Source of the DNA: Micavibrio sp.
GTDB lineage: Bacteria > Pseudomonadota > Alphaproteobacteria > UBA9219
Reading direction: 5' to 3'
DNA length: 34,157 bases
NCBI GenBank assembly: GCA_020718105.1
Contig: DYDA01000024.1
Coordinates: forward strand, 1 to 34,157
Shown here: in pieces, positions 6,544 to 32,459 of the stretch
Numbering within the stretch: the first letter of the stretch is position 1
Layout of the letters: the number at the start of each line of letters is the position of its first letter
Notes under the pieces: model-generated
Databases searched by the model: none
Seen by the model: the letters and a program-made list of their open reading frames with translations, nothing else
Told to the model about the DNA's origin: nothing
Position numbers and translations under genes: made by a program

Positions 6544-6570
6544 GATCTCCTCCTAGCTATGAGCTACAAA

Positions 6571-7950
6571 TTATTTTGCGTTTGTTGTTAGAGCAAAGAA
6601 ACCCCGTTTCCCAATGCGCAGTTTAAGTTCTACCTCTTTCGGACACTCAACCTTTTGCAGAGGATCCGAAAGTTTTTCACCGTTTAAGGAAACGGCACTT
6701 GATGAGATGAGACGGCGCATTTGAGTTCGTGATACGTCAGGTTGTAACTTCGCGCAGAGATCAATCAAATTAATGCTCGTTTCCCCCTCAAACACAGTAC
6801 TGGCGTCGATTGATTCATAGTTTTTCTCATCTGCGGCTTTGTTTTGAAATTGATTATAGAAGAACGCCGCTGCTGCTTTTGCGCTTTCTTCATCGTGATA
6901 CTGTTTCACAATGTTCTCGGCGATCAGCTTTTTGACTTCCATCGGATTGGCCGTTCCAGCACCAAGTTGTTCCTTCAAATCAACTATCGTGTCATGCGAA
7001 AAATCTGTTGCAAGATCCAGATAGTTTGGCAGCAAATGGTCAGGTATAGACATCGCCTTGCCATACATTTGGTTCGGTTCTTCCGTTAACCCAATGTAGT
7101 TGTTGTGTGACTTGCTCATTTTCTCTTTGCCATCTAGCCCGACAAGAAGCGGCATAGACACAACAATTTGCCCAGGCTTTCCGTCTCCTTCTTGCAAGGC
7201 GCGCCCGACCAAGCAATTAAAAAGCTGGTCCGTACCTCCCATTTCGATATCTGCATTAATGGCTATAGAGTCGTAACCCTGCATGAGAGGATAGAGCATC
7301 TCGTGCATCCCAATTGGAATATTATTTGCATAGCGCTTATTAAAATCTTCACGCTGCAACAGTTGTGCCACTGTTGCCTTGGAAAGCAGTTTTACCACGT
7401 CGGTGAAGTTCATTTTTCCAAGCCACTCAGCGTTGAATCTCACTTCCAACCTTGATGTGTCCGTGTCTAAAACTTTTGACAATTGATCAAGATACGTTTT
7501 GGCATTCTCTTGAACTGCCTCCTCCGACAATGGGGGCCTCGCCTTGTTTCGTCCCGTTGGATCGCCAATGCGTGCCGTGAAGTCACCGATAATAACAACT
7601 AGCTTATGTCCTGCATTTTGAAATTGGCGCATCTTTCTTAAGACGACTGCATGACCGAGATGAAGGTCAGGGGCAGTCGGATCAAAGCCGAGTTTTACGA
7701 CAAGCGGTCGGTTGGCCTTTTTTGCCTCTTCAAGTTTAGTTCTAATTCCATTGGGAGGGGTCTGAATGGCAACGCCGCGATTCAGTTCGTCCAATGTCTT
7801 GGCGGATGGATGTGTCATGTTTAAGCTCCCTGCTATTGCCTTGAAATCTTCTGATGTAGGGTTAGATTGAGTGAATCTACCAGCCGCCACGCCGTGCTTC
7901 GTCACGCTTTGAACGCCAGAACCCTTTGTATTTAGTACGTCATATTTCAT
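6571..7950 (-). CDS. tyrS: Tyrosyl-tRNA synthetase, probably a dedicated or self-resistance copy
   Basis: The enzyme charges tRNA-Tyr with tyrosine. The first ATG gives 459 residues. KLGFDPTAPDLHLGHAVVLR contains the HIGH-like signature (HLGH), KEKMSKSHNN is the KMSKS loop, and the last 60 residues (LIDLCAKLQPDVSRTQMRRL, AVSLNGEKL) form an S4 RNA-binding domain. All catalytic parts look complete. The sequence belongs to the class with KLGFDPTAPDLHLGH rather than the E. coli-type CGFDPTADSLHLGHL version. The first 44 residues are unusual, and an in-frame ATG at 7818 has a better ribosome-binding site (GGGAG, seven bases upstream) and gives the normal family length of 415. Its place inside a peptide-modification cluster suggests either target-copy self-resistance or supply of Tyr-tRNA; both are inference. 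Confidence 0.9.
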   Translation of the reverse strand: MKYDVLNTKGSGVQSVTKHGVAAGRFTQSNPTSEDFKAIAGSLNMTHPSAKTLDELNRGVAIQTPPNGIRTKLEEAKKANRPLVVKLGFDPTAPDLHLGHAVVLRKMRQFQNAGHKLVVIIGDFTARIGDPTGRNKARPPLSEEAVQENAKTYLDQLSKVLDTDTSRLEVRFNAEWLGKMNFTDVVKLLSKATVAQLLQREDFNKRYANNIPIGMHEMLYPLMQGYDSIAINADIEMGGTDQLFNCLVGRALQEGDGKPGQIVVSMPLLVGLDGKEKMSKSHNNYIGLTEEPNQMYGKAMSIPDHLLPNYLDLATDFSHDTIVDLKEQLGAGTANPMEVKKLIAENIVKQYHDEESAKAAAAFFYNQFQNKAADEKNYESIDASTVFEGETSINLIDLCAKLQPDVSRTQMRRLISSSAVSLNGEKLSDPLQKVECPKEVELKLRIGKRGFFALTTNAK

Positions 7951-8008
7951 GTTTATTCCATTCCAAATTATAACAAATCGTCATCATGTATGCTCTTTGC
8001 TGCTTTTT

Positions 8009-9391
8009 CTAAGTGATCAGTGGCCCCATATATAACTCTTCTTCCGAAGGACGGTGATTAGTAAGCCCAAGTTTTTGAGGCACGTCAAAGACACGAGGAG
8101 AGATAAAAAACGGGTTTTCTTGCGTATCACAATAGGCGCTCCCGACAATCATAACCTTCACGGCGGTGAAATCGACTTCAGGGACGGACAAATCAACAAC
8201 GATCAAATCCATGCCAAGTTCTTGAATTTTGCTTAGACAGAACTCAAGGTCAATTCTAAGGTTGCCAGATGCTTTTGTTTCATACTCACGCAAGCTAACG
8301 CTTTTCGATCCAGCACTAATTAACGCCGTGTGAGGCGGAAGAACCTTCGCGCCCTTCAGTTCTTCTGAAAAATGCCTTTTAAGCCAAGCGTAAGAACTTC
8401 GGCCTTGGAACGCTTCAGTTACGGCTCTTGTTAACGCAATTTCTGGATCAAGATGGCTTCCAAAACCAAAGAAATAATCTGGCGTTCGGCGCTCATCGTA
8501 GAACTGCGCAAAGAAAATCGGAATGCCAAAATCTGAGGTAAAATCTTTAACGGAAACGTCCATTCCCTCAGCATCACAAAGTGAACAAATCATTTTAATG
8601 AACGGATTTTCTGTTGTTTCAAGATCAACATCCGGCAGCGAAACCATGTTGCGCATGAAGATCATTATTGCATCGCGCTCAAGAGCTTCATAAAAGCCCT
8701 GCAAAATTGCCTCTTCAAGATTGTTCCCCAATGAAAGTCCATCAGTATTCATCGGGGTACATGTAAACACGTTAGTTGGTGCGTTTGTATAAATCAAAGC
8801 AGAATATGCAGGAACCAGTACAGGTTTGTTCTTAATTAAGGAAAACCCAGACACCCAGTGCAACGGCAAATCGGGAGAAAAGGGGCGCATAAAATCATGC
8901 CCGAAAATCCTTTGACACTCTTGAGGTGTTGAGGTTGTTTTCTCAAAACGAGATTGAGAGTCCGGCGTAAAATGAATTAGAGATGCGGGACTTAATGCAA
9001 TGTTCTGAACGTCTCGATATGAAGCTGTGATTAAATCTTCTGGCTCCCATGTTGCGGCACAATACCTCTCTAACGCCTCGCATAAGGCGCTTGCTTGAGA
9101 TTGCTCAACCGTCTGCCCTTTGCCCATTGAATGGGCTGCAACAAACCGACGGATGCTTGTCTGACTTTCTAAGGGTGGAGCATCCAAACTACGGGATATT
9201 TTGTGACGGCATACATAGGTTGGTACGCCAAACTTCTCATCAAAATCAATTCGCTCTGGCTGATACAAAATATTGTCGCTCACATGTTTTTTGGCACGCC
9301 TCAACGTGCTTTCTATGTCCACGGATCGGGTCATATTACAAACATACCGTACAAATCGGTCTTGAAACTTTACTGATTCAATAGGTTTCAT
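8009..9391 (-). CDS. YcaO-domain protein (ATP-dependent peptide-backbone modification)
   Basis: The protein has 460 residues. YcaO enzymes use ATP to activate a peptide-bond carbonyl and form azolines, thioamides or amidines. Three ATP/Mg-binding blocks are visible: GKGQT (90-94) with SALCEALERY (101-110); NTDGLSLGNNLEEAILQGF with ALERDA (about 215-241); and GFGSHLDPEIALTRAVTEAF (309-328). The C-terminus ends LYMGPLIT and lacks the Pro-rich tail of azoline-forming YcaOs, and no E1-like or dehydrogenase partner is nearby. It is therefore more like a stand-alone YcaO. The start lies six bases after the stop of the radical SAM gene, so the two are translated together. An in-frame ATG at 9334 is an alternative start. 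Confidence 0.9.
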   Translation of the reverse strand: MKPIESVKFQDRFVRYVCNMTRSVDIESTLRRAKKHVSDNILYQPERIDFDEKFGVPTYVCRHKISRSLDAPPLESQTSIRRFVAAHSMGKGQTVEQSQASALCEALERYCAATWEPEDLITASYRDVQNIALSPASLIHFTPDSQSRFEKTTSTPQECQRIFGHDFMRPFSPDLPLHWVSGFSLIKNKPVLVPAYSALIYTNAPTNVFTCTPMNTDGLSLGNNLEEAILQGFYEALERDAIMIFMRNMVSLPDVDLETTENPFIKMICSLCDAEGMDVSVKDFTSDFGIPIFFAQFYDERRTPDYFFGFGSHLDPEIALTRAVTEAFQGRSSYAWLKRHFSEELKGAKVLPPHTALISAGSKSVSLREYETKASGNLRIDLEFCLSKIQELGMDLIVVDLSVPEVDFTAVKVMIVGSAYCDTQENPFFISPRVFDVPQKLGLTNHRPSEEELYMGPLIT

Positions 9392-9397
9392 GTTGGC

Positions 9398-10390
9398 CTA
9401 TGCAACAGCATTAGGATAAAGCGCATCGTAAAAAGCTGCATTTACGGTCTTTTTAAATCGGCAATAATCCGCAAACTTCTTATCCGCCGAAATGGTTGGC
9501 GATGGCTGTTTCCAAAGCCATTTAATCCGTTGGCATCCCTCGCGCCATTCACAATCTGTTTTGTCGCATTTAACAGCTGGATAATTTACCCACTGATAAT
9601 CCGTGATGATCTTTAACATCTCGTCCATATTATCCATTGTCATCTTAAAGCTGTTGTCCATATCCATATCTGATAGGAAAACCTGCTTCTTGTTATGAAG
9701 GGACGTGAATTCAGGCGATATGTAAGAAAAGAGATTGAGCGGGGCTTTGTTATGAAAGTCCGCTACAACTCGGCGCAGATTATCATATAGATCGTTCAAC
9801 TCTTCATCGGTTGGGCTTTCATATGGCAGATAATTTATCTCTTGAATGTTCGGAAGCTGCCCCAATTCCTCGTATACAATGCGGCAGACTTCATAAAGGT
9901 TCTTGAAGTCCGAGTTTCGTAGCACCGTTGCGCCAAGAAGAAGGGGCATGTCTGGAGAGTTATATTTTTTAATAATCCGCATTGTCTCTTCTGGTTTCAA
10001 CGCCCCTCTGTCAGGAGATAAAGGGCTTTCCAGAGAAATAAATAAGTGGCTTATCACAGGCTTTGCTCGATCAATCCATGTCTGATCGATGCACTTGCCA
10101 CCAGTTAGAACGTATGGTTTGGTTCCTATTTTCTTTAACGCACGTCCAGCCAAATCAAACAGCCTGTCTCCAAGCACAGTCGGATCACCACCGCTAAACC
10201 GATACGTTACTTCAGTACCAGAATTCTCTGCAAAATATTTTATAAAAGACGTGTAAACATCAAACAGATCGTCAGGTATATCTCGTCTAACATCTTTTTT
10301 GCCGCGCGCAGCAAAGAAATGGCAATATGTGCAAGCGAGATTGCAGCGCTCTGTTACGAGTATGCTAAAAGTATTGACAATATTTTTCAT
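9398..10390 (-). CDS. Radical SAM enzyme with C-terminal SPASM/twitch-like Cys cluster
   Basis: The protein has 330 residues. The radical SAM motif CX3CX2C is at C16, C20 and C23 (TERCNLACTYCHFF), followed by the SAM-binding region YRFSGGDPTVLGDRLFDL. The C-terminus has additional Cys in CDKTDCEWREGCQRI and DYCRF, like the auxiliary iron-sulfur site of SPASM or twitch peptide-modifying enzymes. Such enzymes make radical-based crosslinks, epimerisations or excisions in precursor peptides. No separate RRE domain is seen. It begins 15 bases after a terminator-like hairpin that separates it from a tiny precursor gene with a strong ribosome-binding site, a normal RiPP layout. The reaction cannot be deduced. 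Confidence 0.9.
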   Translation of the reverse strand: MKNIVNTFSILVTERCNLACTYCHFFAARGKKDVRRDIPDDLFDVYTSFIKYFAENSGTEVTYRFSGGDPTVLGDRLFDLAGRALKKIGTKPYVLTGGKCIDQTWIDRAKPVISHLFISLESPLSPDRGALKPEETMRIIKKYNSPDMPLLLGATVLRNSDFKNLYEVCRIVYEELGQLPNIQEINYLPYESPTDEELNDLYDNLRRVVADFHNKAPLNLFSYISPEFTSLHNKKQVFLSDMDMDNSFKMTMDNMDEMLKIITDYQWVNYPAVKCDKTDCEWREGCQRIKWLWKQPSPTISADKKFADYCRFKKTVNAAFYDALYPNAVA

Positions 10391-10411
10391 AACAGCCCTT
10401 TCAAAAAATGA

Positions 10412-10450
10412 CCAAGTTGCCGTAGATTAGGTCATCTACGAGCAACTTGG
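10412..10450 (-). terminator. Hairpin plus T-run between precursor and radical SAM gene
   Basis: On the - strand CCAAGTTGC pairs with GCAACTTGG and, inside, CGTAGAT pairs with ATCTACG with one bulged base and a six-base loop. The sequence TCATTTTTTG follows. This has the form of an intrinsic terminator and would lower transcription of the enzyme genes relative to the precursor, as is usual in RiPP operons. It lies entirely between the precursor stop and the ATG at 10390. Confidence 0.8.
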
Positions 10451-10460
10451 CCCAGAGTAT

Positions 10461-10610
10461 TTACCGAGGTTCGAGAGGCGTGATGCCGCTAGAATAAAAA
10501 ACCGTAACAGGAACATTATCGCCCTTCATAAGGGTTTCCTGAACCTTCATGATCTTTCTGTCGTTCCGCTTCGGCGCATCGAGCTTACTTTGTTCAACGA
10601 GATTGTTCAT
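10461..10610 (-). CDS. Candidate RiPP precursor peptide, 49 residues
   Basis: A small ORF with an excellent ribosome-binding site (TAGGAGG, seven bases before ATG) sits directly upstream of the radical SAM and YcaO genes. The N-terminal 30 residues (starting MNNLVEQSKLDAPKRNDRKI) are charged and look like a leader. The C-terminal part is VPVTVFYSSGITPLEPR, with one Tyr, two Ser, two Thr, a Gly and two Pro but no Cys. Residues open to chemistry are F38, Y39, S40, S41 and G42 and the T/S hydroxyls. The absence of Cys argues against thiazoles and lanthionines. Size, position, ribosome-binding site and the terminator behind it all fit a precursor. Its identity as one is inference; I do not recognise a family. 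Confidence 0.7.
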   Translation of the reverse strand: MNNLVEQSKLDAPKRNDRKIMKVQETLMKGDNVPVTVFYSSGITPLEPR

Positions 10611-10620
10611 AACGTACCTC

Positions 10621-10779
10621 CTATGTTGTGTTTGTGTTTTTGCCTACCCCTGCACAGAGCAAAGAAGTTCTTGGTTTGAAGGCGCAGGCTATTTTACGGT
10701 AGTGGTCTATTTGTTGTCGCTCAACCGGTATAAAAGGCTTTTTGGTCCCCTTAGCGGATACTTTTTGTTTCCTTTTCAT
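10621..10779 (-). CDS. Possible 52-residue basic peptide upstream of the precursor
   Basis: An ORF runs from ATG (10779) to a TAG that overlaps the ribosome-binding site of the precursor gene (TAGGAGG), which would allow translational coupling. The product is Lys/Arg-rich with two Cys (begins MKRKQKVSAKGTKKPFIPVE; contains RKIACAFKPRTSLLCAGVGK). There is no convincing ribosome-binding site for its ATG, and no recognised family. It could be a second peptide, a leader that controls the precursor, or chance. Between it and the decarboxylase stop lies an 18-codon ORF (10824-10880) and an isolated AGGAGGTG without a normal start codon behind it. The 291 bases between decarboxylase and precursor hold no other clear gene. 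Confidence 0.3.
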   Translation of the reverse strand: MKRKQKVSAKGTKKPFIPVERQQIDHYRKIACAFKPRTSLLCAGVGKNTNTT

Positions 10780-10902
10780 ACACGGGTGATCAACCCAGAT
10801 TTAATGTGCAGTTCTATTTTGTTTCACCTCCTTTTCGTTCTCCGCCGCTTATTAAACGCGTCCATCAAAACACGGCGCATTTTTTGATATGAAACAGACT
10901 TG

Positions 10903-12648
10903 TTAGCTCCAGCAATTCGGGCCGTTCGCCACGGCCTTCTTTTGGGTTGCCGCTCTGGTTGGCTTTAACTCCAGCGCGCTATCGAACTCCGTTTTTGCAG
11001 CGGCAATTCTCTTTATAAGCTCAAGAGACGTTCCCGCAGTTATGTATGGATTCAGCACGTAGATTCTTAATGCGGTTACACCGTCTCCCGCAGGGGAATA
11101 AAATGATGCGGATGTTTTTCCGATTGCAAAGCCGTCAGCTCCACTAAACTTGCTCTTTTGGAGCCAACTATAAAAATCGGAATTATATGAATTGTTTTCT
11201 GACAACGCTGTGGCGTCGTGTAATTCCTTCTCATACTGTTGTGCTGGAATTACGCTTGAAGGATAGCAGCGAATGTAGACATCAGAGCCATAAGAAGAGT
11301 TGTTGGCGACAAATAAACCCGTGTCGTTGGATTCGCTGTTTACAGCGTCTCTCATTAACTGAGCCATCTCTTGCGCGTGTCCAAGCAAGATTTGATACCC
11401 CTTTTTGCCAAGCGCCGTTATTGTTAGCCATGTTCCAACCATGTTCGCGGCTGAACGAGATGTTTCCAAAGAATACTTGCCAGGATTATAAGCATTCTCG
11501 TCGAAAAAAAGCGGTGTCATCATCTGGCTATCACGCCCAAGATTAGCTAAATCCTGCTTGTTTCGCGCAATGATCATGCTTGAGACATAGGGGATATAGC
11601 CTGTTTTATGAAAATCAATCCCAAAGCTGTCCGCAAATTTAAACGTCTTTGCTAGATCGCTTGCGCGACGAATTTTAGCAAGAGCCTTTAAGCTAAAGCC
11701 CAATGAGTTATCTTGAAAATCATAGTCGGCAAAATGTAGGTATGACCATCCTATTACGCTATCGCTATGCACGTGTGGCGTATAATCCAAATGATGTTTT
11801 CTAACTAATTGGTCTCGCATGCTGGCTATTTGTTCAAAATCATCAATAGCCATGTTGGCCGTTGTCCCGCCCACGCCAACTATGCATGCAATTCTTTTTC
11901 CTAAACGAATTTGCTCGACACAAATCCTTTCAAGATCGTCCAAATCGGTTGTCTGGTCTGTATTTGAACGCGCAGTAAGATAGTTGTTGCGCCCAAGGCC
12001 TAGCCAATTGGTTGCATTCTGTTGTGCGTAGTGGGCTGGTTTAGACCCGATAACAACTAAATTGTTTTGGCTCCCCTTAAAAACAAAGTTTGGGTCTGCC
12101 CTTGATATGCCCATTTTGAAAGCATACAGGTTTGTTCCTGTTCCGCCGAACGTAAACAATCCTCCGGCCACTAAAGGGTCGTAACCAGCAAGTTCCGCAT
12201 ATACCTTGGCAACTTTCAATTCTGCATTAACAGAATTTGCGGCATCCTCTCCAGTTACTGCATTGGGCATGTAAAGTGACACGGCAAGGTTGGCTGCGAA
12301 ATATGTCCATGCCGGAAGCGGAATAACGTTCTTTGTCATGAAGGGATGGCTTGCCTTTACTGAGCCTTCAAGTTCACCCATCAAACTGGGTAAAACATCA
12401 AATGGATTTTCTAACAAGTCATCCGAAAGTTGTGCATTGGCTGCAACATCGTCCAATTTTAGTTCTGGTTTTGTGCGCTGATACGTTGGGCCTACGCCTT
12501 GATGTTGAACAACCATGCGGACAGCTTCTTTAAGAAATGCCATTAGGTGATCGGAATTATTGCCGTCTGGCCTTAGAAAATAATTCTCTCTGATTTTCTT
12601 AAGGTCGCTCAAATATGGATAGTTTCCGTCATCATTGTTAGATTGCAT
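10903..12648 (-). CDS. PLP-dependent group II amino acid decarboxylase-like protein
   Basis: The protein has 581 residues with the fold of glutamate/tyrosine/aromatic amino acid decarboxylases. GLFTFGGTGTNLYAFKMG (163-180) is the phosphate-contact block. HSDSVIGW (294-301) replaces the usual H-V-D-A-A-x-G-G block and keeps the Asp that holds the pyridine nitrogen. DSFGIDFHKTGYIPY (340-354) carries the PLP-binding K348 after H347. Such enzymes remove the alpha-carboxylate of an amino acid to give an amine; some family members instead catalyse oxidative deamination or act on peptides. It lies just upstream of the precursor gene in the same direction and has CGGGAG before ATG. Substrate unknown; a role on the peptide C-terminus or in making an amine building block is speculative. 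Confidence 0.85.
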   Translation of the reverse strand: MQSNNDDGNYPYLSDLKKIRENYFLRPDGNNSDHLMAFLKEAVRMVVQHQGVGPTYQRTKPELKLDDVAANAQLSDDLLENPFDVLPSLMGELEGSVKASHPFMTKNVIPLPAWTYFAANLAVSLYMPNAVTGEDAANSVNAELKVAKVYAELAGYDPLVAGGLFTFGGTGTNLYAFKMGISRADPNFVFKGSQNNLVVIGSKPAHYAQQNATNWLGLGRNNYLTARSNTDQTTDLDDLERICVEQIRLGKRIACIVGVGGTTANMAIDDFEQIASMRDQLVRKHHLDYTPHVHSDSVIGWSYLHFADYDFQDNSLGFSLKALAKIRRASDLAKTFKFADSFGIDFHKTGYIPYVSSMIIARNKQDLANLGRDSQMMTPLFFDENAYNPGKYSLETSRSAANMVGTWLTITALGKKGYQILLGHAQEMAQLMRDAVNSESNDTGLFVANNSSYGSDVYIRCYPSSVIPAQQYEKELHDATALSENNSYNSDFYSWLQKSKFSGADGFAIGKTSASFYSPAGDGVTALRIYVLNPYITAGTSLELIKRIAAAKTEFDSALELKPTRAATQKKAVANGPNCWS

Positions 12649-12690
12649 AATGTTCTCCCGTTTTTATATGAATATTCAAATCGGCAATTT

Positions 12691-13347
12691 TTATGTTGCT
12701 TGCTTGCTCTTCCCCCATACGGCCAAAAACTGTTTTCTTGCAAAAAGCGAGAGCTTGTTTGAATCAAGAACAATCAGCTTTGAAATTGAGTCCCCGCGAG
12801 GAATGGCAATTCCAATCTTTTGCCCATAAATACAGATGGCCGTGATGTCGCCGTAATCTTTTGATAGAAGACGCACTTGAATGTTCTGAGATGTCTTTGA
12901 GTCATCTGAAGCCTTAATGGCAAGGCATTTAATTGAGGTGTCTTCGCAAAGTGCGCACAGGCCGCTGAGCCGTTGAAGATTCTTTAGCCCACACAATTTT
13001 GTGAACGCCGCTACGGATGAAGTAGCGATTAACACTTCTCCGCCAGATTTTCTGATTGTCTTGTACACATCATCAAAAAACTCTTGGCCACTACACGCTC
13101 CATCAAAAATGTAAACATTTTCAGCGCGACGGCGAACACCATCTCTTTCAAGAAACTCTATCCCAGCCAATTGAAGTGAGCCAGAAATGGCATCGGTTGT
13201 CGAACGGCGCGGCGAAATGTATCCAAGCTCCATTTTTCGTATCGCTGCTAAGGAGAGTCCTGATGCCTTCACTAAGTCTCGTTGTGACCAATCAAGCAAC
13301 GCGCGCGCAGCTTTTATTTGTCTGGCACTAAGGGGGCGTGTGATCAT
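12691..13347 (-). CDS. XRE-family regulator with C-terminal sensor-like domain (copy 1)
   Basis: This protein has 218 residues. Residues about 8-65 form a Cro/CI-type helix-turn-helix (QIKAARALLDWSQRDLVKAS, then SLAAIRKMELG). A domain of about 140 residues follows that ends in LFARKQFLAVW. The same end pattern, hydrophobic-F-x-x-x-W after a predicted strand-rich core, is seen in the regulators at 15750 and 17255, and recalls the phospholipase-D-like effector domain of TrmB-type regulators. It lies 13 bases behind the NUDIX gene and 42 bases before the decarboxylase, so it is probably in one transcript with both and may control the peptide cluster. The effector-domain assignment is tentative. 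Confidence 0.8.
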   Translation of the reverse strand: MITRPLSARQIKAARALLDWSQRDLVKASGLSLAAIRKMELGYISPRRSTTDAISGSLQLAGIEFLERDGVRRRAENVYIFDGACSGQEFFDDVYKTIRKSGGEVLIATSSVAAFTKLCGLKNLQRLSGLCALCEDTSIKCLAIKASDDSKTSQNIQVRLLSKDYGDITAICIYGQKIGIAIPRGDSISKLIVLDSNKLSLFARKQFLAVWGKSKQAT

Positions 13348-13360
13348 TTTTTCTAATCCC

Positions 13361-13873
13361 TTAAAACAATGAATGAAGGTTGTATTTTTCGCGCCCTAAT
13401 TGGGCCGTTTCTGCGTGTTCGTTCTCAATTTCTTCCGAAACCAAAACGTGATGAGCTTCCTCGATCAACGAACGAACAAGGTCGCTCTGTACGCCAACCG
13501 TCTCGAAAAACGTTTCCTTGCTCATTAAACGGTGGCTCTGCTTTTGCCTCGGCCAAGCCCGTCCTTCACCTGCCATGCGCCCAACAAAGACGATAGTTTG
13601 TGCGCTTTGGTTCTGACGGTTTTTTGTTTTTATAATCGTGACGGGTTTCACGAGGCCAAGTGAGATATTCGCTGTCTCAAAAACTTCGCGCCGCGCCGCC
13701 GCTTCCATATCGTCATCATCCCATTCAATGCGTCCGCCAGGCAGGACGAAGCGGCTTTTGCTCTTGAGCGCCAACACGTGATTTTGATCGTCGAAGACAA
13801 CAATTTTGACGTATTTGATTTCTTCTGTATCCAACGACTGATCAGCAACAAAACGAGGCTTGGTTTTAAGCAT
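13361..13873 (-). CDS. NUDIX hydrolase with degenerate box
   Basis: This protein has 170 residues. ATG at 13873 is chosen because GGGAGG lies just upstream; an ATG at 13891 lacks a site. The NUDIX box GX5EX7REUXEEXGU is recognisable in GGRIEWDDDDMEAAARREVF followed by ETANI: the REVFE core is present, but the second Glu of EE is Thr and the Gly is Asn. The preceding strand (FVLPGGRIEW) is typical. NUDIX enzymes cut nucleoside diphosphates linked to another group. The altered box may change activity. The start overlaps the upstream gene by eight bases, so it is the sixth gene of a tightly packed operon. Function in phage or cargo biology is unknown. Confidence 0.8.
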   Translation of the reverse strand: MLKTKPRFVADQSLDTEEIKYVKIVVFDDQNHVLALKSKSRFVLPGGRIEWDDDDMEAAARREVFETANISLGLVKPVTIIKTKNRQNQSAQTIVFVGRMAGEGRAWPRQKQSHRLMSKETFFETVGVQSDLVRSLIEEAHHVLVSEEIENEHAETAQLGREKYNLHSLF

Positions 13874-14138
13874 ATCGCGCCTCCCGTTCATAAGAGGAAC
13901 CGATGCCGTTTGCGCGGCACTTAAGCTCGATGGCGGCCAGCGCGTTGGCGAAGTGCCAAAGGGCAGCGATGTCTTGATGTGTGAAGCCTTTGTCGTGAAG
14001 GTCTTGCGGCTGGCAATTTCCGCTTTCTAAGGTTGTTTCAATAATGACATCGGCCATGCGCGCGACGGGTTCATATTTTTTGTCTGTCGGTGTCGTAATT
14101 TGATCGACAATACGGCGTGGGTGGATGGCTTTAGTCAT
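13866..14138 (-). CDS. Small protein, paralogue of the gene at 14926
   Basis: This 90-residue protein overlaps both neighbours (8 bases on each side). Its centre (IIETTLESGNCQPQDLHDKG, then FTHQDIAALWHFANAL) aligns by eye with the protein at 14926 (TTMKSQGKCKPKDLLDQRFS, then HEEIERCWDMAECF). The shared pattern is a helix, (Q/K)-x-(Q/K)-DL-x-D, F-(T/S)-H-x-(D/E)-I, and W. Two members of one family in one operon point to duplication and divergence. No function is recognised. The ribosome-binding site AGGGAGAT supports the ATG. Confidence 0.7.
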   Translation of the reverse strand: MTKAIHPRRIVDQITTPTDKKYEPVARMADVIIETTLESGNCQPQDLHDKGFTHQDIAALWHFANALAAIELKCRANGIGSSYEREARYA

Positions 14139-14925: not shown

Positions 14926-15132
14926 TCACGCCTCCGCCATATCAAAATGGGCAAAGCATTCGGCCATATCCCAGCAACGCTCAATTTCTTCATGAGAAAA
15001 GCGTTGGTCGAGAAGGTCTTTAGGCTTGCACTTGCCCTGGGATTTCATCGTCGTGGCAATGGCGACGGCCATCTTTTGGCAAACGGCGAACCCGTTGCCG
15101 GAATCATGGGAAAGGATGTCAACAATGATCAT
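14926..15132 (-). CDS. Small protein, paralogue of the gene at 13866
   Basis: This 68-residue protein starts at ATG 15132, with GAGGAAGGGAG upstream. Its stop is one base from the next gene, and its start overlaps the previous stop (ATGA). The body (KCKPKDLLDQRFSHEEIERC, then WDMAECF) matches the centre of the protein at 13866. No known domain is recognised. The two copies lie in the same operon with two unrelated genes between them. Confidence 0.7.
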   Translation of the reverse strand: MIIVDILSHDSGNGFAVCQKMAVAIATTMKSQGKCKPKDLLDQRFSHEEIERCWDMAECFAHFDMAEA

Positions 15133-15428
15133 TGTACGCTCCCTTCCTCTGGTTCTTCGTCGCACAGGTCGACAAGAAACTTGATAACGTCCTCGTAAGA
15201 ACGAGAAGGCAGGTGATCTATGTTTGCCGCAGAGAATTTCGTGGAAAGGCGCTGTTGGATTTCTTCTTCCCGTGCGCCGATATTCATGGACGCGTAGGCT
15301 ACAAGCGCCCGAACGGAAATCATCTCGTTCTCGTTGAGCCCAGTGATCGACGCTTTATGAGTCAGCGCGCCGTTTCCATTGGAGGGACGGCTTGGATTGA
15401 TGGTAATGGGCATCTGTTTCAGCGACAT
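15129..15428 (-). CDS. Small cargo protein, member 2 of the five-copy family
   Basis: This 99-residue protein is the first gene of the six-gene - strand operon. ATG 15428 has AGGAT seven bases upstream. The conserved part runs from about residue 35: MISVRALVAYASMNIGAREE, then AANIDHLPSRSYEDVIKFLV. It shares with the family the (A/Y)-(V/A)-(S/A) helix, the turn and the PSR-x-Y-(E/Q)-(D/N)-x-(I/V)-(K/E)-(F/Y)-L-V-D-L ending, closest to the member at 16408. Its function is unknown. As in the 15750-16946 operon, a family member lies in the same operon as an XRE regulator. Confidence 0.75.
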   Translation of the reverse strand: MSLKQMPITINPSRPSNGNGALTHKASITGLNENEMISVRALVAYASMNIGAREEEIQQRLSTKFSAANIDHLPSRSYEDVIKFLVDLCDEEPEEGSVQ

Positions 15429-15500
15429 CGGTGAAATCCTCAACACAACCTTGTTGAGTCCATATGCCGACGGTTCGCTTCAGAAGGGCACGACTATTTT

Positions 15501-15749: not shown

Positions 15750-16385
15750 TTACGCGGCAGCCGTTTTCTTCCACGTGGCCTCAAACAACGCCTTGTGATA
15801 ATAGGCCATCTCAGAATCGCTGATGATCGTAAACTGATATCCACGACCGACCCCTCGGATCATCACAAACTTTTTATCGTAGATCAGGCATCCCGGAAGC
15901 GGGTTGTCTGGATCGGACGCAATTGTTCTGAAGGCAATCTTTTTGTATTTTCCCGCTTCCGTATTGGTTTCGCTTCTAACAAGACAGCGAACCGCAGCAA
16001 AATCGTCAATGCGCCGAAGCCACTCGTGATTGTTGCAGAAGATGTCGAAAAACTCTTTCGAGCTTTCCGTAACAGCTAGGACGCTCCCGCCTTGCCCTGA
16101 AACGACTGTCTGCATGAGATTGGTGTACAGAGAGAGATGTCCGTCCTGCCCATCGCACTGCATGATTTCCTTCCGGCGCTTCTTGATGCCATCGGGGATA
16201 AATTCCAGCCCCTTGCGTTCGAAGGCCTCGCAAATGAGGCGCGTTGTGTCGTCGCGCGGAGAAATGTTCCCGTCCTCAAGGTTACGGATCGTATTGGCCG
16301 CTAGTCTGCACGCCGAGGCCAAGTCCTCGCGCGACCAGTTCAACATGGCTCTTGCACCACGTATTTGTTCGGCACTAATTTGCAT
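15750..16385 (-). CDS. XRE-family regulator with C-terminal sensor-like domain (copy 2)
   Basis: This protein has 211 residues. The helix-turn-helix covers residues about 5-62 (EQIRGARAMLNWSREDLASA, then LAANTIRNLEDG). The C-terminal domain (about 75-208) ends with MAYYHKALFEATWKKT and contains GCLIYDKKFVMIRGVGRGYQ, similar in layout to the regulators at 12691 and 17255. It is the third gene of a small - strand operon, 22 bases behind a member of the five-copy small-protein family. It probably senses a ligand or partner through the C-terminal domain. The resemblance to TrmB-type PLD-like domains is tentative. Confidence 0.8.
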   Translation of the reverse strand: MQISAEQIRGARAMLNWSREDLASACRLAANTIRNLEDGNISPRDDTTRLICEAFERKGLEFIPDGIKKRRKEIMQCDGQDGHLSLYTNLMQTVVSGQGGSVLAVTESSKEFFDIFCNNHEWLRRIDDFAAVRCLVRSETNTEAGKYKKIAFRTIASDPDNPLPGCLIYDKKFVMIRGVGRGYQFTIISDSEMAYYHKALFEATWKKTAAA

Positions 16386-16407: not shown

Positions 16408-16740
16408 TCAGTTCACAACGTTGTTCATTTTCAAATCGACAAGATATTCGATGGCGTTTTGATACAGCCGTGATGGCAATACCTTAACTTCGTTGACGCC
16501 GAAATGAGAAGTCAGAACCTCACAAACCGTCGTTTCATTTACTTCCTGCGTATAGGCCACATAGGCAATCATGCCGGAAATGGCCTGCAGTTCGACATTG
16601 TTCAGGGGCCTCTCATGTGCCTTGCGAAGCGCGGTCAGGCCAGCGGTCAAAAGGCGCAGATCGCCGGAGGCTAAATCGCCGCCCTCTGTTGCTTCGCTGT
16701 AAATCTCTTCGGGAGTCTTTGTGGATTGAGGCTTGTTCAT
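16408..16740 (-). CDS. Small cargo protein, member 3 of the five-copy family
   Basis: This 110-residue protein starts at ATG 16740, with AAGGAGCG upstream. The N-terminal half (TPEEIYSEATEGGDLASGDL) is variable; the C-terminal half (AISGMIAYVAYTQEVNETTV, then FGVNEVKVLPSRLYQNAIEY, then LVDL) is the family core. It has both the FGV turn seen at 19840 and the LPSR-x-Y ending seen at 15129, so it links the family. It lies between a 64-residue protein and an XRE regulator in one operon. Function is unknown. Confidence 0.75.
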   Translation of the reverse strand: MNKPQSTKTPEEIYSEATEGGDLASGDLRLLTAGLTALRKAHERPLNNVELQAISGMIAYVAYTQEVNETTVCEVLTSHFGVNEVKVLPSRLYQNAIEYLVDLKMNNVVN

Positions 16741-16751
16741 CTGTTCGCTCC

Positions 16752-16946
16752 TTAATTGATAGAGGTAGGGGTAACGGTGGAGCAAACGCTGGCCTGATAC
16801 TCGTTGGTGGCACTAATAAAGAAGGCCCAACGGTCCTCAAGGGCCATAGGGGGATGTTGAACTTTGTTGTCGCGTTCCCAAACATGAAGGATGTCCCAAA
16901 TGAAGTTTTCGCCATGTTTTTTGTAAAACGTCTCAAAATCCAACAT
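16752..16946 (-). CDS. Small unknown protein, 64 residues
   Basis: ATG 16946 has GGAGAC upstream. It is the first gene of the operon that continues with the family member at 16408 and the XRE regulator at 15750. The sequence (MLDFETFYKKHGENFIWDIL, then WERDNKV, then DRWAFFISATNEYQ) is aromatic-rich and has no motif I recognise. No signal peptide or membrane segment is visible. The 308 bases between it and the divergent gene at 17255 hold the promoters of both operons. Confidence 0.6.
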   Translation of the reverse strand: MLDFETFYKKHGENFIWDILHVWERDNKVQHPPMALEDRWAFFISATNEYQASVCSTVTPTSIN

Positions 16947-17152
16947 TTTCTGTCTCCGTTTGAAAAGTTTCAAAGGCCACTTTGGCTCCCGATTTCTGTA
17001 ACCTAAAGGATTTTTGCCATGAAAGCAATAGAAATGTTTTGTGAAAGGGACTGACGATACCTCTCACAACAAACGTCTTCACAGCCAATCGTTAAGATTT
17101 TAGCCCTATATTTTAACCATTTCGAACAGACCTACTTAAAATTAGTCCAAAC

Positions 17153-17169
17153 CTACCAAAAAACGGTAG
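17153..17169. promoter_or_regulatory. CTACC-N7-GGTAG palindrome upstream of the XRE-CDPS operon
   Basis: CTACC (17153-17157) and GGTAG (17165-17169) form an inverted repeat with an A-rich seven-base spacer in the AT-rich divergent intergenic region, about 85 bases upstream of the ATG at 17255. It is a plausible operator for the regulator that starts the operon. No exact -35/-10 pair could be fixed. Confidence 0.45.
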
Positions 17170-17254: not shown

Positions 17255-17890
17255 ATGCCAACAGGAAGACAAATAAGAGCAGCAAGAATGCTTATTGACT
17301 GGGAAGCTACAGATCTTTCTCGGAGCGCGAACCTGAGCACCGAAACGATTTTGAAAATTGAGCGCGGGGAAGCAAATCCCAAACCCGATACGACGGAAAA
17401 GATAATTAATGCGTTGCGCGATGGGGGCGTGGAATTTGACGGGGAGCGTGGGGTTAAATTGATCCTTGAGGATTACAGAGTTTTTGGAGGAGAGGATTGT
17501 TACCTAAGACTTCTTGATGAGGTTTTTTTAGATCTACATGCAAGGAAGGGTGCGGAGGTTTTGTTCATTTGCGTGGATGACGCGGTTTCATCCCCAGAAA
17601 TCATCGATGCCAACAAGCGCATTAGGAATGCTGGCATCAAGTGTAGATACTTATGTTCAGAGACGGCAACAAAATTTGATTATACACTTGAAGACTATAG
17701 GGCAATTTCTAAAGAGTATTTTAAGAATAGCGTTATGGTTGTTTATGATGAAAAAGTTGCAACTCTTAGAGGAACGAACAACGGCGTTCTTATAGTTAGA
17801 GATAAAGACCAAGCAGAGATGCTACGCGGTTTATTCAACATAGTCTGGTCACATTCGAAGTCGCCTAAAAACGGAGTTAAATCTAAATGA
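17255..17890 (+). CDS. XRE-family regulator with C-terminal sensor-like domain (copy 3), paired with a CDPS
   Basis: This protein has 211 residues from ATG 17255, which has AAGGAACGGAAG upstream; a TTG at 17231 is an unlikely start. The helix-turn-helix is at residues about 5-60 (RQIRAARMLIDWEATDLSRS, then LSTETILKIERG). The C-terminal domain contains AEVLFICVDD, MVVYDEKVATLRGTNNGVLI and ends EMLRGLFNIVWSHS, like the copies at 12691 and 15750. The stop overlaps the start of the cyclodipeptide synthase gene (ATGA), so the two are expressed as a pair. It may sense the cyclodipeptide or its trigger through the C-terminal domain; that is inference. Confidence 0.8.
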   Translation: MPTGRQIRAARMLIDWEATDLSRSANLSTETILKIERGEANPKPDTTEKIINALRDGGVEFDGERGVKLILEDYRVFGGEDCYLRLLDEVFLDLHARKGAEVLFICVDDAVSSPEIIDANKRIRNAGIKCRYLCSETATKFDYTLEDYRAISKEYFKNSVMVVYDEKVATLRGTNNGVLIVRDKDQAEMLRGLFNIVWSHSKSPKNGVKSK

Positions 17891-18606
17891 CAACAAGGTA
17901 TAAAATCGAAGTGCGCAACTGCCCAAACTGGAGAAAACAAAGGGCAACAACACTTGGTGTGAGCATTATGAGCCCTAATTGGCAGGGAGAGAAGTTTCAG
18001 GCGATAATGGAATTTGCGTCAGAAAACTTTGAAGAAATTCGCATTGATGTCACAGATGCTCTATACAGACACAACTTTATGGCTCAGGGCCTCGATGAAG
18101 AACAAGCCTTTGCGCAGGCAACAGCTGCGGGTTCTCTCTGGCTTACACAACACGCCGACATTATCATGGCATCCCCTGTAAAACCGCAGATTATCAGATG
18201 GGCGCGCTGGTATAAACACGCCGACTTTGAAGCGGTTCACCATAAATTCGTTTCCCTCTATAATTCTTCGTCCGTTTTCCATGACGCTGTAGAATCCGAT
18301 ATTATGAACTTTTATCGCAGGGCGAACAATAGATGTCATGAATCCGAGAGGCAGCACAGCAGAGACTTTCTTATTGAAGAAGTTGCTGTGATAACTCTTC
18401 AGGCAAGAGAGTTACCCTCAGTGAAGATTTATCCTGGTGAAGAATTGAATTGCTTAAATGTTGTTCGCAGAGGGCTTGTTGAAGATGCTCCGACAGGTCT
18501 AGAGCGAGAACAATATGCAAAAATAAAATTTGAAACGCGTCCAGCGTATAAAAAGTCTCTTTCCGTATATGGAACGCAAAAGCTTGCTGTGGCAAGTCTA
18601 CTGTGA
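17887..18606 (+). CDS. tRNA-dependent cyclodipeptide synthase, XYP subfamily
   Basis: This enzyme type takes two aminoacyl-tRNAs and makes a cyclic dipeptide. The protein has 239 residues, the usual length. LGVSIMSPNWQGEKFQAIME has the nucleophile S26 in the GVS motif. FLIEEVAVI carries E165, which aligns with the catalytic Glu182 of AlbC, and VKIYPGEEL has Y182-P183, the YP pair that defines the XYP subfamily. The intervening RHNFMAQGLDEEQAFAQA is also typical (short H-x-x-x-x-x-G, then A-rich helix). The position of AlbC Tyr178 is Phe161 here, an unusual substitution near the active site. No oxidase or methyltransferase follows, so the product may be used unmodified. Substrates cannot be read from the sequence. 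It is translationally coupled to the XRE gene upstream. Confidence 0.8.
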   Translation: MTTRYKIEVRNCPNWRKQRATTLGVSIMSPNWQGEKFQAIMEFASENFEEIRIDVTDALYRHNFMAQGLDEEQAFAQATAAGSLWLTQHADIIMASPVKPQIIRWARWYKHADFEAVHHKFVSLYNSSSVFHDAVESDIMNFYRRANNRCHESERQHSRDFLIEEVAVITLQARELPSVKIYPGEELNCLNVVRRGLVEDAPTGLEREQYAKIKFETRPAYKKSLSVYGTQKLAVASLL

Positions 18607-18657: not shown

Positions 18658-18939
18658 TCAGCGTTTTGCTTGACTTGAAAGAGGTAGGTCATTGAGAAAC
18701 TTTGTCACCGCCTCAAGATCACGAGCGGGTATATGGCTCAAATCGCAAATGCCGAAGACCCTCTGGGTTATCTCAAAGATTTCCGCTTCCTCGGTTTTTA
18801 TCTCGTAGGCGACGTGACGGATCAGCATGGAGAGCGTATGCACCTCTTTGAGGTCAAGCGTTCTGGAAAGCTCGCAGCCCTTGTCGGCAACAACCTTCGC
18901 TTTAAAAGAGAGAATGTTCGAGGCAGTATCGTCGCTCAT
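18658..18939 (-). CDS. Small cargo protein, member 4 of the five-copy family
   Basis: This 93-residue protein faces the cyclodipeptide synthase gene from the other strand; the two stops are 51 bases apart, with a CTCCT/AGGAG stem of terminator type between them. ATG 18939 is favoured by AGAGG nine bases upstream. The family core is HTLSMLIRHVAYEIKTEEAE, then FGICDLSHIPARDLEAVTKF, then LNDL. It has R in place of the usual A/Y before HVAY and an Asp for the conserved Tyr after (P)AR. Function is unknown. Confidence 0.7.
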   Translation of the reverse strand: MSDDTASNILSFKAKVVADKGCELSRTLDLKEVHTLSMLIRHVAYEIKTEEAEIFEITQRVFGICDLSHIPARDLEAVTKFLNDLPLSSQAKR

Positions 18940-19531
18940 GTCCAAAAACCTCTTTGTAAAAAGTCTTAAAAGAACAACCCCATTATATCGTTAACGCGAC
19001 CTAAAATCAAAACAATGCAGCACGGAAATCCGCACAAAACATAGTAAATGGTACGATTTTTCTCTTGATTTCTTCTGTGCAAGCAAATCCGGCCTGCACC
19101 CCAACGAAGGCGGCCTGAAGCTGCCAGTCCCCGCCGAGGTGCCCGATTTCATCTGACGGGATCCCATGAACCAATCAGGCGGCGGGCGTATAAACGCCTA
19201 CCTTTGTGGGCTACGAACGGGGTCGCCGCCATTCCCACCGCCACGCTTGATCTGCCCCTCGTGCAGCGTCTCCCGCGGTCCCGACGTTTCTATGGGTCTC
19301 GGTCCCCGACTGTGGCGCTCAAAGCCTTTCGGCCAAGCAGCCGCTTCAGATTCGTAGAGAAAAATATATTCGTGATAAAAATGGTTGTCTTCTAAAAAGT
19401 TGGGTAAAACTTTACCCAGATTTTATCTGGCCAACCAAAATTTGTCGCACGAAAAAACGCACCATATAAGTTTGAAAAAATTCAGCCTTACCATCACGAA
19501 AAGCCTAATTATTTGCCTATAGATGCGCGTG

Positions 19532-19839: not shown

Positions 19840-20124
19840 TCAGTTCTTCATGTCGCTTGGGTTTGTGAAGTCAACAAAAAAGCTGATGAGGTCATTGTAG
19901 GATGACACAGAGACGTCCTCAATCTTTGAGACGCCGAAATTCTTGCAGGCCATCTGAAGGATTTCAGACCCATTGATTTCCAAAGTGTAGGACACATAGG
20001 CGACCAAGGCAAAAACGGATTTGATTTCGCGGTCGACCAGTTTTCTTGTCGGACTATAATCGAGGGCTGAGGCGATGGTTCTTATCTCGCCAGAAATAAC
20101 GTCTGAAGAAGTATCCTTGCTCAT
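19840..20124 (-). CDS. Small cargo protein, member 5 of the five-copy family
   Basis: This 94-residue protein has ATG at 20124 with AAAAGGA upstream. The family core is SVFALVAYVSYTLEINGSEI, then FGVSKIEDVSVSSYNDLISF, then FVDF. The match to the member at 16408 (AYVAYTQEVN, FGV, SRLYQNAIEYLVDL) is easy to see. The gene stands alone about 330 bases before the tRNA-Thr fragment, so it may be the outermost cargo gene of the element. Function is unknown. Confidence 0.75.
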   Translation of the reverse strand: MSKDTSSDVISGEIRTIASALDYSPTRKLVDREIKSVFALVAYVSYTLEINGSEILQMACKNFGVSKIEDVSVSSYNDLISFFVDFTNPSDMKN

Positions 20125-21951: not shown

Positions 21952-22152
21952 CTATAACATCTGAGGTAATTTCCGCCCCGCCTCCCTAACAACCTCAATA
22001 TCCCCCGCCTGATAACGTAGAGAGCTTTTAACGTCTGTGTGGCCGAGGCGATCCATAATGGTACGCAGAGAGGCTCCCTGCGCGCCCCGCATGGTTTCCG
22101 ACAGTATGACGCGCCATGTGAGGGATAGGACGTTCGAAAAAATTCTTTGCAT
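21952..22152 (-). pseudogene. C-terminal remnant of a tyrosine recombinase (integrase)
   Basis: Only the last third of the catalytic domain is left. GASLRTIMDRLGHTDVKSSL, then RYQAGDIEVVREAGRKLPQM, carries the conserved LGH and the RY near the active-site Tyr. The HxxR block and everything upstream are missing, replaced by sequence with no similarity. It is a third, separate integrase from the two at 23065-24643. It lies beside the tRNA-Thr fragment region and may be the remains of the integrase that once used it. Confidence 0.7.
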
Positions 22153-22300: not shown

Positions 22301-22681
22301 ATGATATCATTCAAAACGAAGGCTTTTGCCCGCTGGGCGAAAAAGGAAGGGCTTGACGATGCAGCTCTTTGTAAAGCACTCCACGAAATGGAGCGCGGGT
22401 TGTATGAGGCTGATTTAGGCGGGGGCGTTTTAAAAAAGCGGATAGCGAGATCAGGAGAAGGGAAAAGAGGCGGCTTTCGCACATTGATAGCGACGAACAA
22501 AGAGAACCGCTGGTTCTTTATGTTCGGTTGGCCGAAAAACGAACGCAGCAACATTGATGCAAGAGAGGAGACCGCGATTAAGAAAATGGCCTCGCATCTT
22601 TTAACCCTGAAGCCAACAGAGTTGGCAGCGGCAAAGCAGGAAGGCGAACTTATAGAAGTGGCTATGAAACCTCATAGCTAA
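22301..22681 (+). CDS. RelE/HigB-like toxin (DUF1044 type)
   Basis: This 126-residue protein begins MISFKTKAFARWAKKEGLDD and has GGVLKKRIARSGEGKRGGFR and ENRWFFMFGWPKNERSNI, the pattern of RelE/ParE-superfamily toxins of the HigB-2/DUF1044 kind, which cut mRNA on the ribosome. Basic residues K, R, R and the GFR turn are preserved. The toxin gene comes first and the antitoxin second, as in hig systems. A clear promoter with a palindrome lies upstream. No sign of decay is seen, so the pair is probably active and helps keep the element in place. Confidence 0.85.
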   Translation: MISFKTKAFARWAKKEGLDDAALCKALHEMERGLYEADLGGGVLKKRIARSGEGKRGGFRTLIATNKENRWFFMFGWPKNERSNIDAREETAIKKMASHLLTLKPTELAAAKQEGELIEVAMKPHS

Positions 22682-23064: not shown

Positions 23065-24174
23065 CTATGCCTTAACCTGTTTCTTATTGAGTTCCTCGCC
23101 GTTCGACTGCGTCAGATTTAAAATTTGCTCAATTCTGGCTGCGAGTTTTTCAAGCGCTTCACGTTTTTCGTTTGCATATGAATGGCGGTCATAGGTTCCC
23201 TCGACCCCGCCAATAACGTGACCAAGCACGCGCTCGGAAATATCCGGGCGCACACCTGCGCTCGACATGATAGTTTTGGCTGTTCGGCGTAAGTCATGAA
23301 GAGTCCAATTGGGCATCGGCTCGACCTTTTCTCCTTTCTTTGCTTGTTTCCGCATTGCCGAAAGGATGGCCTCGTCTAGCGCGGCCTTACTCTTACCAAA
23401 CGCTGAGAATGGTGTTTTGGCGCTTGATGCAAACACATAATCGCATTTACTGATTTTTTTCCGCTCTTCGACAAGGCCTAGAACTGTTTTCGATAAGGGA
23501 ACAAAATTGGGGCGCTTTGTTTTGTATCTTTCCGCAGGAATGGTCCACATTCCATCCTCATTAATTTCTTTGAGACTCATGCTTGCAACTTCATCGCGTC
23601 GTTGTGCGGTAAGCAATAAGGCCTTCACGAGGGTGCCGAATGTTCCAGCCTCGTCAAGCACTGGCCAGATGATACGAATTTCGTCATCGCTTAGAACCCG
23701 CGTGCGCGCGCGATCTTTTGTGTTGGCGCGGGGCGTAACTCGAACAATGGCTGCGTTCAAATTAAAAACATCATCGCGCTCGGCATACCAAGTGAGCGCT
23801 TTCCGAAGATTCTGCCGTGCCCTGTCGGCCATAACAGGGCCACGCTCTTTTTCAATCTGATCCAACATTCTTGCGACGTGAGATCGACGCAGGTCGTAAA
23901 TTCCAACTTTTCCTATGGCAGGCTTAACCAACCGTTTAAATGTGCTTTCGTATGCGTCAGCGGTACGCAGGAGCCGTTCCTTATCGCGTACATATTGTTC
24001 TATAAAATCGTCAATCACTTCCCCCACAGTCCGTGTTTTAGTGGGCTTTATTTTATCATTTAGAGGATTGTCCCCACGATCAATGCGTTGGCGTATTTTC
24101 TTTGCTTCCTGGACGGCTTTGAGTACAGACCAATCGCCAAACCGGCCTATCGTATAGCGCCGAAGATAAAACGC
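23065..24174 (-). pseudogene. Tyrosine integrase lacking its N-terminus (integrase B)
   Basis: The frame is open from 24174 and reads FYLRRYTIGRFGDWSVLKAV, the middle of the N-terminal arm-binding (DUF4102-like) domain, then the SAM-like core-binding domain (RTADAYESTFKRLV) and a full catalytic domain: R in LLTAQRRDEVASM, HDLRR (H-x-x-R), VLGH and the nucleophile Tyr in YDRHSY. The C-terminus looks complete. No start codon with a ribosome-binding site precedes it, because its first residues were lost at a junction with another integrase. Later in-frame starts (24027) would miss the arm domain, so function is doubtful. Confidence 0.8.
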
Positions 24175-24643
24175 TTAACTCACGCCGGACAGTCCCTTTT
24201 GTGACGGGGCGCTTGTCTTCAACATAAACAAGACCATCCTTTTTCCTTATCACGCGCGGCTTTCTCGTACGCTCATGCTCGTATTGTTTAAACGCTTGGG
24301 GTGTCAGGTGTGAAACTTTTGCATGGGGCCCGAAGAATTTGATCAAAGAGTCGGCACACCGATTGGCAAGGCCGATTGTCTTAAGATCGTTCTTTCGCTC
24401 TTGGACATATTGCTGCAGGGCCGTAATAACAAAGAATCCTTCCGGCGGCCTAATCTCTTCGCAACCAATATCCAATGAATGTTTGACCAAAAATTCTCCA
24501 AGAGCGTATTCGGCCTTTGCGCGATCCCGCGTTCCCGTGCTAAATCTCCGCCAGCGGCGTTTGACGGGATCCTTCCAGTAAACGTACCACGCATGCTGAT
24601 TGGGTTCTTTTCCAAGCCGTGGGGCAAAGGGTTGTCTTAACAT
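24080..24643 (-). pseudogene. N-terminal fragment of a second integrase (integrase A)
   Basis: ATG 24643 has GGAGGCC upstream and opens a normal integrase N-terminus (MLRQPFAPRLGKEPNQHAWY) through the core-binding domain, up to KGTVRRELSVLSSAL. There the homology ends near 24170 and the frame runs on into sequence that belongs, in another frame, to integrase B. The catalytic domain is missing. The two genes were therefore joined by a deletion or recombination inside both. The shared DNA at about 24165-24185 is the junction. Confidence 0.75.
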
Positions 24644-32263: not shown

Positions 32264-32459
32264 CACCACCCTCAATCCGCGCCAAAAGAGACTGCGCAAA
32301 AGCCCCCGCCTGCGCCGCACTTTCGGACGCACGGATGCGGTGGAGGGATTCTGAAAATAGCGTGACAATAACCCCCGATGCAATCCCAAGGATCATCAGC
32401 GCAACCATGGTTTCAAGGAGGGTGAAGGCTTTATTATTGCGTCGTGAAATTAAGCACAT
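32187..32459 (-). pseudogene. Pseudopilin (GspI-like) fragment, copy B
   Basis: ATG 32459 lies one base after the stop of the immunity gene. The product begins MCLISRRNNKAFTLLETMVA and continues LMILGIASGVIVTLFSESLH to SLLARIEGGDVSLQ, about 75 residues of a type II secretion pseudopilin with its KAFTLLE prepilin site. After that (about 32240) the frame runs into the nuclease fragment and ends in unrelated residues. It extends further than copy A. A complete gene would need about 120 or more residues. Confidence 0.75.
32347..32432. repeat. 86-base repeat, copy B (pseudopilin gene start)
   Basis: Direct copy of 29378-29463 with six mismatches by hand count. It lies directly behind the immunity gene of the Rhs locus. 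Recombination between the two copies would delete or insert the 3 kb between them. Confidence 0.85.

Follow-up and report, generated by a model that had tools for sequence, protein, structure and literature searches.

The XRE-type regulator gene and the cyclodipeptide synthase (CDPS) gene at 17255–18606 are a real, recurring pair, and they belong to a broader family of such cassettes. The regulator, here called X1, belongs to a family (X) whose members stand ahead of exchangeable enzymes. The pair lies in a 34,157-nucleotide stretch of Micavibrio sp. DNA, referred to in its entirety as the window, and the genome (1.9 Mb, 42 contigs, 96% complete) holds a second X-CDPS pair on another contig (C19). 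As had been claimed from the letters of the sequence, the coordinates of the two + strand open reading frames confirm that they overlap by a shared ATGA.

17255–17890, + strand: X1, XRE-type regulator gene (ATG 17255, stop TGA 17888–17890)
17887–18606, + strand: CDPS gene, XYP subfamily (ATG 17887, stop 18604–18606)

The pair may be read, with slightly better than even confidence, as a one-component autoregulated circuit in which X1 senses the product of its own enzyme.

Identity, recurrence and exchange of the enzyme

The sequence-only reading had recognized CDPS motifs, and the profile searches agree. The window CDPS scores above the cut-offs of both NCBIfam TIGR04539 (56.4 bits, cut-off 45) and Pfam CDPS PF16715 (27.9 bits, cut-off 27), while a profile built from 15 CDPS relatives matched solved CDPSs at up to E 1e-41. 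By alignment, the equivalents of AlbC Ser37, Glu182, Tyr202 and Pro203 are S26 (the catalytic serine), E165, Y182 and P183, and since all four are present, the protein is assigned to the XYP subfamily. Active CDPSs strictly conserve both Ser37 and Tyr202; AlbC is impaired by the Y178F substitution (PMC5935735). The window CDPS has a phenylalanine (F161) at the position of Tyr178. Because this position is described as well conserved rather than strictly conserved, it was not used as a defining XYP feature. Phenylalanine occurs there in 8 of the 16 relatives compared (window CDPS counted) and tyrosine in the others; thus it is naturally occurring variation and not an isolated defect, although activity is not assured. 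Of three CDPS copies in one relative, the first (L044, 9391–10128) carries S37C, the second (L046, 9108–9851) carries Y202C and the third (L045) keeps both Ser37 and Tyr202. Given these losses and the effect of Y178F on AlbC, some CDPS copies may be inactive or altered. CDPS domains were also seen within two long open frames, L043 (6940–8820; 626 aa) and L218 (747 aa), that are possible fusions. The usual tailoring partners (cyclodipeptide oxidase, P450, methyltransferase) had been reported as missing, and indeed Pfam identified none in those window proteins that were scanned.

The regulator and the enzyme were found together 14 more times, so the overlap is not a peculiarity of this sequence. 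The total of 15 X-CDPS pairs is spread across seven alphaproteobacterial families (f1, f3, f22, f35, f121, f138 and f159). Among 190 genomes, comprising relatives and the Micavibrio genome itself, 13 contained a CDPS at a total of 18 places. Two of these (L054 and L055) run off the contig; at 14 of the 16 evaluable places an X gene lies directly upstream with a gap of −52 to +19 bp, and at the other two (L042 and L056) it does not. A class-wide sample added one further pair (G312, family f159) and two genomes, G087 and G381, with a CDPS and no X within the 1.5 kb read. The enzyme itself is rare, being present in 10 of 385 alphaproteobacterial genomes sampled evenly and in 2 of 398 across the phylum, one of which is the Micavibrio genome. 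The named relatives are metagenome-assembled genomes with labels such as 'Alphaproteobacteria bacterium' and 'Rhodospirillales bacterium'.

The X family extends well beyond CDPS. The set analyzed has 105 copies (99 distinct) from about 30 genomes, and 15 matches fall in the Micavibrio genome. When the genes in the downstream same-strand slot were grouped into sequence clusters, annotated from a subset of members, the main clusters were CDPS (14), LPG_synthase_C-like (6), GNAT (4) and EgtD-like Methyltransf_33 (3), followed by an unannotated family (3) and class I aminotransferases (2). Two of three scanned members of the LPG-like cluster match the Pfam model and L164 does not. Single cases included SAM methyltransferases, an aldo-keto reductase, a 2-hydroxyacid dehydrogenase, GCS2 and a metallo-beta-lactamase fold; some of these may sit beside X by chance, since the ORF caller was crude. 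In the Micavibrio genome alone, the slot is occupied by two CDPSs, an LPG-like enzyme, an EgtD-like enzyme and the unannotated family. Regulators also occur without enzymes, as in an array of eight or nine successive X-family genes at L058 (1492–8587).

In a tree of the 99 distinct X proteins, all 14 CDPS-linked members fall in one clade of 22 rows (support 100/99) that also includes solo regulators. Enzyme labels required 34 changes on this tree versus 55.6 when shuffled, and none of 200 shuffles was as low. This clustering could be plain common descent of the operon.

The window holds a further X-family regulator next to a different set of enzymes.

12691–13347, − strand: further X-family regulator, in line with the enzyme gene row 5566–12648

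Read along the − strand region 5566–13891, the genes encode an AstE/AspA-like protein, a TyrRS-like synthetase, YcaO, a radical SAM protein, a PLP-decarboxylase-like protein, the X regulator and a NUDIX protein. Judged by gene content, the row looks like a small-molecule cluster with an X regulator of its own.

Regulator fold, putative operator and divergent genes

X1 is composed of an XRE-type HTH (residues 4–56; Pfam HTH_3, 26.8 bits) followed by an alpha/beta, PLD-like C-terminal domain (about 71–206). The AlphaFold2 model, calculated from 26 rows, has a pLDDT of 90.5. Among solved structures, the neighbours of the C-terminal domain were the PLD-superfamily proteins NucT (VIA Z 13.5) and Nuc (13.1), TrmBL2 (5box, 12.8) and TrmB (2f5t), whose sugar-binding domain gave a VIA Z of 11.4. 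The HTH resembles that of C.Kpn2I (VIA Z 12.5). The catalytic HxK(x4)D motif is absent from X1 and is found in just 1 of 105 full-length X-family members. The TrmB Pfam model has no match in X1, for which Pfam reports HTH_3/HTH_31 instead. Since the predicted fold is that used by TrmB and the catalytic motif is missing, the C-terminal domain is likely to be a ligand sensor. The earlier suggestion of a ligand-sensing domain in this part of the regulator thus finds support in the predicted structure.

A palindromic element precedes the pair.

17133–17168, strand not assigned: putative tandem operator, with a perfect TACC-N7-GGTA dyad at 17154–17168 and a weaker copy 21 bp upstream

The window copy has 3 mismatches out of 16 in its tandem form. 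Across 49 upstream regions, 13 exact TACC-N7-GGTA dyads were counted where 0.12 were expected from shuffles, and the excess occurs at a spacer of 7 with almost none at any other spacer. The element is often doubled, 21 bp apart, ahead of CDPS, LPG-like, EgtD-like and GCS2 modules. In genome scans, an excess over the reversed control was confined to family f1, for example 11 sites versus 0 in G003 and 7 versus 0 in G012. The Micavibrio genome has 4 tandem operators with no more than 2 mismatches, of which 3 lie at X1-enzyme modules. Sites away from modules were located at hemC-hemD in three genomes, in the vicinity of rodA and an XRE gene of 154–163 aa in three, and ahead of an acpS-lepB-rnc-era row; these gene names were read from the protein sequences without a database match. 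The f1 occurrences (L198, L200, L202, L205, L208, L215 and L217) raise the possibility of a wider regulon.

The HTH signature W[DEKG][ATI] is found in 14 of 14 X proteins with an operator and in 6 of 80 without one (Fisher p 2e-12), a comparison among related proteins with a signature picked after the data were seen. The recognition helices of operator-linked X1 proteins differ, and therefore another shared regulator could bind the element. In CDPS modules the operator is positioned roughly 70–130 bp ahead of the start codon, a distance that would suit an activator.

Co-variation of the sensor domain with the enzyme was measured with the HTH of the same X protein as an internal control. Over 15 pairs, the Pearson correlation with CDPS distance reached 0.71 in the sensor domain, compared with 0.42 in the HTH, and within the order the values were 0.80 versus 0.03. 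The nearest neighbour coincided with that of the CDPS for 9 of 15 sensors and for 0 of 15 HTHs. Bootstrap ranges from 14 pairs with equal column numbers did not overlap (sensor 0.59–0.75, HTH 0.20–0.40). Spearman coefficients (sensor 0.44, HTH 0.47) do not separate the two domains, and so the effect rests on the closer pairs. Exchange of the HTH between modules would explain the co-variation as well as ligand matching does. Taken with the exchangeable enzymes, the co-variation gives indirect support to the idea that X1 senses the product.

On the opposite strand, the pair is accompanied by genes for a small helical protein (SM) and a second X-family regulator (X2).

16408–16785, − strand: SM, small helical protein, divergent from X1 (likely ATG at 16740); same position in other modules
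15750–16385, − strand: X2, second X-family regulator, in line with SM; separate SM-linked clade
18658–18945, − strand: SM paralogue, downstream of the CDPS gene (profile match 98.6 bits)
19840–20124, − strand: SM paralogue (profile match 96.5 bits)
15129–15446, − strand: SM paralogue (profile match 90.7 bits)

With an additional ORF at 3880–4266, the window has five members of the SM family. SM proteins are 95–140 aa in length, helical and often divergent from X1. The AlphaFold2 model of the window SM (16408–16785) is all-helical with a pLDDT of 75.7, and a fold search produced no significant match, the best Foldseek hit being a Red-beta C-terminal domain (E 0.67). SM is followed by X2 in the window and at L040, L045 and L047, and likewise at L041 with a larger gap; SM is present without an adjoining X2 at L044 and L046. 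The SM-linked X2 proteins make up one clade (100/99), separate from the enzyme-linked X proteins. X2 was considered as a binder of the operator in cis, which is unlikely since the operator is retained next to SM in L044 and L046, where no X2 adjoins.

Proposed circuit and competing explanations

Computation establishes the pairing and how often it recurs, along with the predicted fold of the domains, the exchange of enzymes, the operator and the link between operator and HTH signature; the product, the ligand, the direction of regulation and any export of the product are inferred. In the proposed circuit, the CDPS would use aminoacyl-tRNAs to make a small product, most likely a cyclic dipeptide. 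The catalytically dead PLD-like domain of X1 would bind this product or a close derivative, and the HTH would control the operon of X1 by way of the tandem TACC-N7-GGTA operator, placed ahead of the promoter. The X chassis would be reused with other enzymes as parallel channels, each regulator being matched to its enzyme. Since operators of this type also occur in relatives at hemC and at a handful of further genes, the circuit may reach outputs beyond itself.

A competing explanation is feedback-controlled biosynthesis, in which the CDPS product is secreted or stored, for example as an antimicrobial or metal-binding compound, and is sensed by X1 without being a signal. The same gene data fit, and there is precedent in PchR (YvmB), which regulates the Bacillus pulcherriminic acid genes, with the CDPS YvmC and CypX as the enzymes encoded (PMC4992311). 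The concentration of tandem operators at X1-enzyme modules in the Micavibrio genome also hints at a circuit that may be mostly self-contained. However, Pfam revealed no tailoring enzyme among the window proteins scanned, and the eleven operator sites in one relative, one of them at hemC, point to wider outputs there. This explanation is considered rather unlikely. More doubtful still is a toxin-antitoxin-like module, whereby the CDPS drains aminoacyl-tRNA to slow growth and X1 represses or neutralises it. Such modules commonly show a regulator-then-effector order with an ATGA overlap, the CDPS, LPG-synthase-like and GNAT families include users of aminoacyl-tRNA, and the window encodes a RelE-type gene at 22301–22681. 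Yet the slot also accepts ordinary metabolic partners (aldo-keto reductase, 2-hydroxyacid dehydrogenase, aminotransferase, EgtD-like enzymes), X1 possesses a PLD-like sensing domain and solo X regulators are common. Nor do PADLOC defence models cover the pair other than by a generic HTH, and on the same grounds a defence system was rejected. The operator might instead be owned by a separate global regulator, such as the 154–163 aa XRE protein near rodA, with the X1-CDPS modules as clients and the X1 ligand unrelated to the CDPS product. Operators at hemC-hemD and near rodA with the XRE gene, in three genomes each, and the varied recognition helices would fit, but all 14 X proteins that have the operator also carry the HTH signature and the X sensor tracks the enzyme, leaving this arrangement improbable.

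The sequence-only reading had placed the pair as phage or island cargo and had suggested the cyclic dipeptide as a signal, for example in lysis-lysogeny or within a population. Its CDPS, possible sensing domain and missing tailoring partners have held up, and the pair is conserved; the phage cargo and lysis-lysogeny parts find no support, as phage records, viral sequences and neighbouring genes all speak against them. A tblastn search of 50,697 phage records returned no CDPS relatives, and none was seen in IMG/VR by a pattern scan that reaches close relatives only; matches to the X regulator in both collections were at the level of the HTH. Around 13 other X-CDPS loci, neighbours are not phage-like: 2 of 100 genes are integrase-like and no structural phage gene recurs among the listed families. 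The roughly 15 X-family copies in the Micavibrio genome are a further argument against cargo. Plasmid carriage was discarded as well, the only records being from sponge symbionts with 23% identical matches. What favours a mobile origin is local: tail-like genes at 1–5.1 kb, a split tyrosine recombinase, in two parts (23065–24643), a recombinase remnant (21952–22152) and a GC content of 43% at the pair compared to 48–52% in other stretches of the genome that were read. These features allow an island origin for this single copy; that the pair serves the lysis-lysogeny choice as cargo of a prophage or island is very improbable. An Rfam scan of the window found nothing. Elsewhere in the window, 31514–32389 scores 136.6 bits against PDC-S26, a candidate defence family of PADLOC.

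Relation to known systems and significance

The arrangement recalls LuxI-LuxR, where a sensor-regulator gene sits beside a one-step synthase, types are matched and solo regulators (LuxR solos) exist. It differs in that the X1-CDPS proteins are unrelated to LuxR and LuxI and the enzyme slot is exchangeable between unrelated families. Neither a LuxR-type HTH or autoinducer domain nor a LuxI-type synthase is present, the Pfam and NCBIfam matches of the pair being an XRE HTH and a CDPS. By profile and key residues, the enzyme belongs with the solved XYP CDPSs (5OCD, 5MLQ and 5MLP), from which it is set apart by Phe at Tyr178, by the lack of tailoring genes found beside it and by the overlap with a dedicated regulator. 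X1 shares the PLD-like fold of the TrmB sensor with archaeal TrmB and TrmBL2 (VIA Z 11.4–12.8), but its amino terminus is a Cro/C1-type HTH, closest to C.Kpn2I among solved structures, and there is no family match at the sequence level.

Cyclic dipeptides and CDPS pathways have been connected to regulators of other kinds. In Vibrio vulnificus, the cyclic dipeptide of the cyclo(Phe-Pro)-ToxR-LeuO pathway is reported to be bound by the periplasmic domain of ToxR (PMC6934829). A regulator would sense a cyclic dipeptide in both cases; ToxR is a membrane sensor, in contrast to the cytosolic XRE-PLD protein, and the abstract does not mention a linked CDPS gene (PMC6934829). PchR, associated with yvmC-cypX, likewise regulates a CDPS pathway, but is of the MarR family, has a P450 present and serves an iron-chelator pathway (PMC4992311). 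CDPS clusters with PAS domains have been proposed as possible quorum-sensing systems, an earlier suggestion that CDPS products are signals (PMC5767969). That proposal concerns PAS rather than XRE-PLD, is one of association only, and the term 'helix-turn-helix' does not appear in the paper (PMC5767969). A literature search, with most subscription journals outside its coverage, found no published XRE-CDPS pair and no papers joining TrmB and PLD-like regulators.

On a broader scale, it is tentatively suggested that small-genome alphaproteobacteria have an undescribed family of signalling cassettes. Each would combine an XRE HTH and a dead PLD-like sensor with one of several interchangeable enzymes sensed by its own regulator, with an SM and second-regulator arm in many copies, several private channels per genome and a shared operator code that reaches core genes such as hemC. 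If the proposed circuit is correct, CDPSs would gain a candidate receptor encoded in the same operon and the long-standing question of cyclic-dipeptide signalling would become testable with two genes. The X family would then be an example of a signalling chassis in which unrelated enzymes replace one another around an unchanged architecture for sensing and DNA binding. Candidate receptors would also come into view for further orphan products, among them those of EgtD-like or LPG-synthase-like enzymes.
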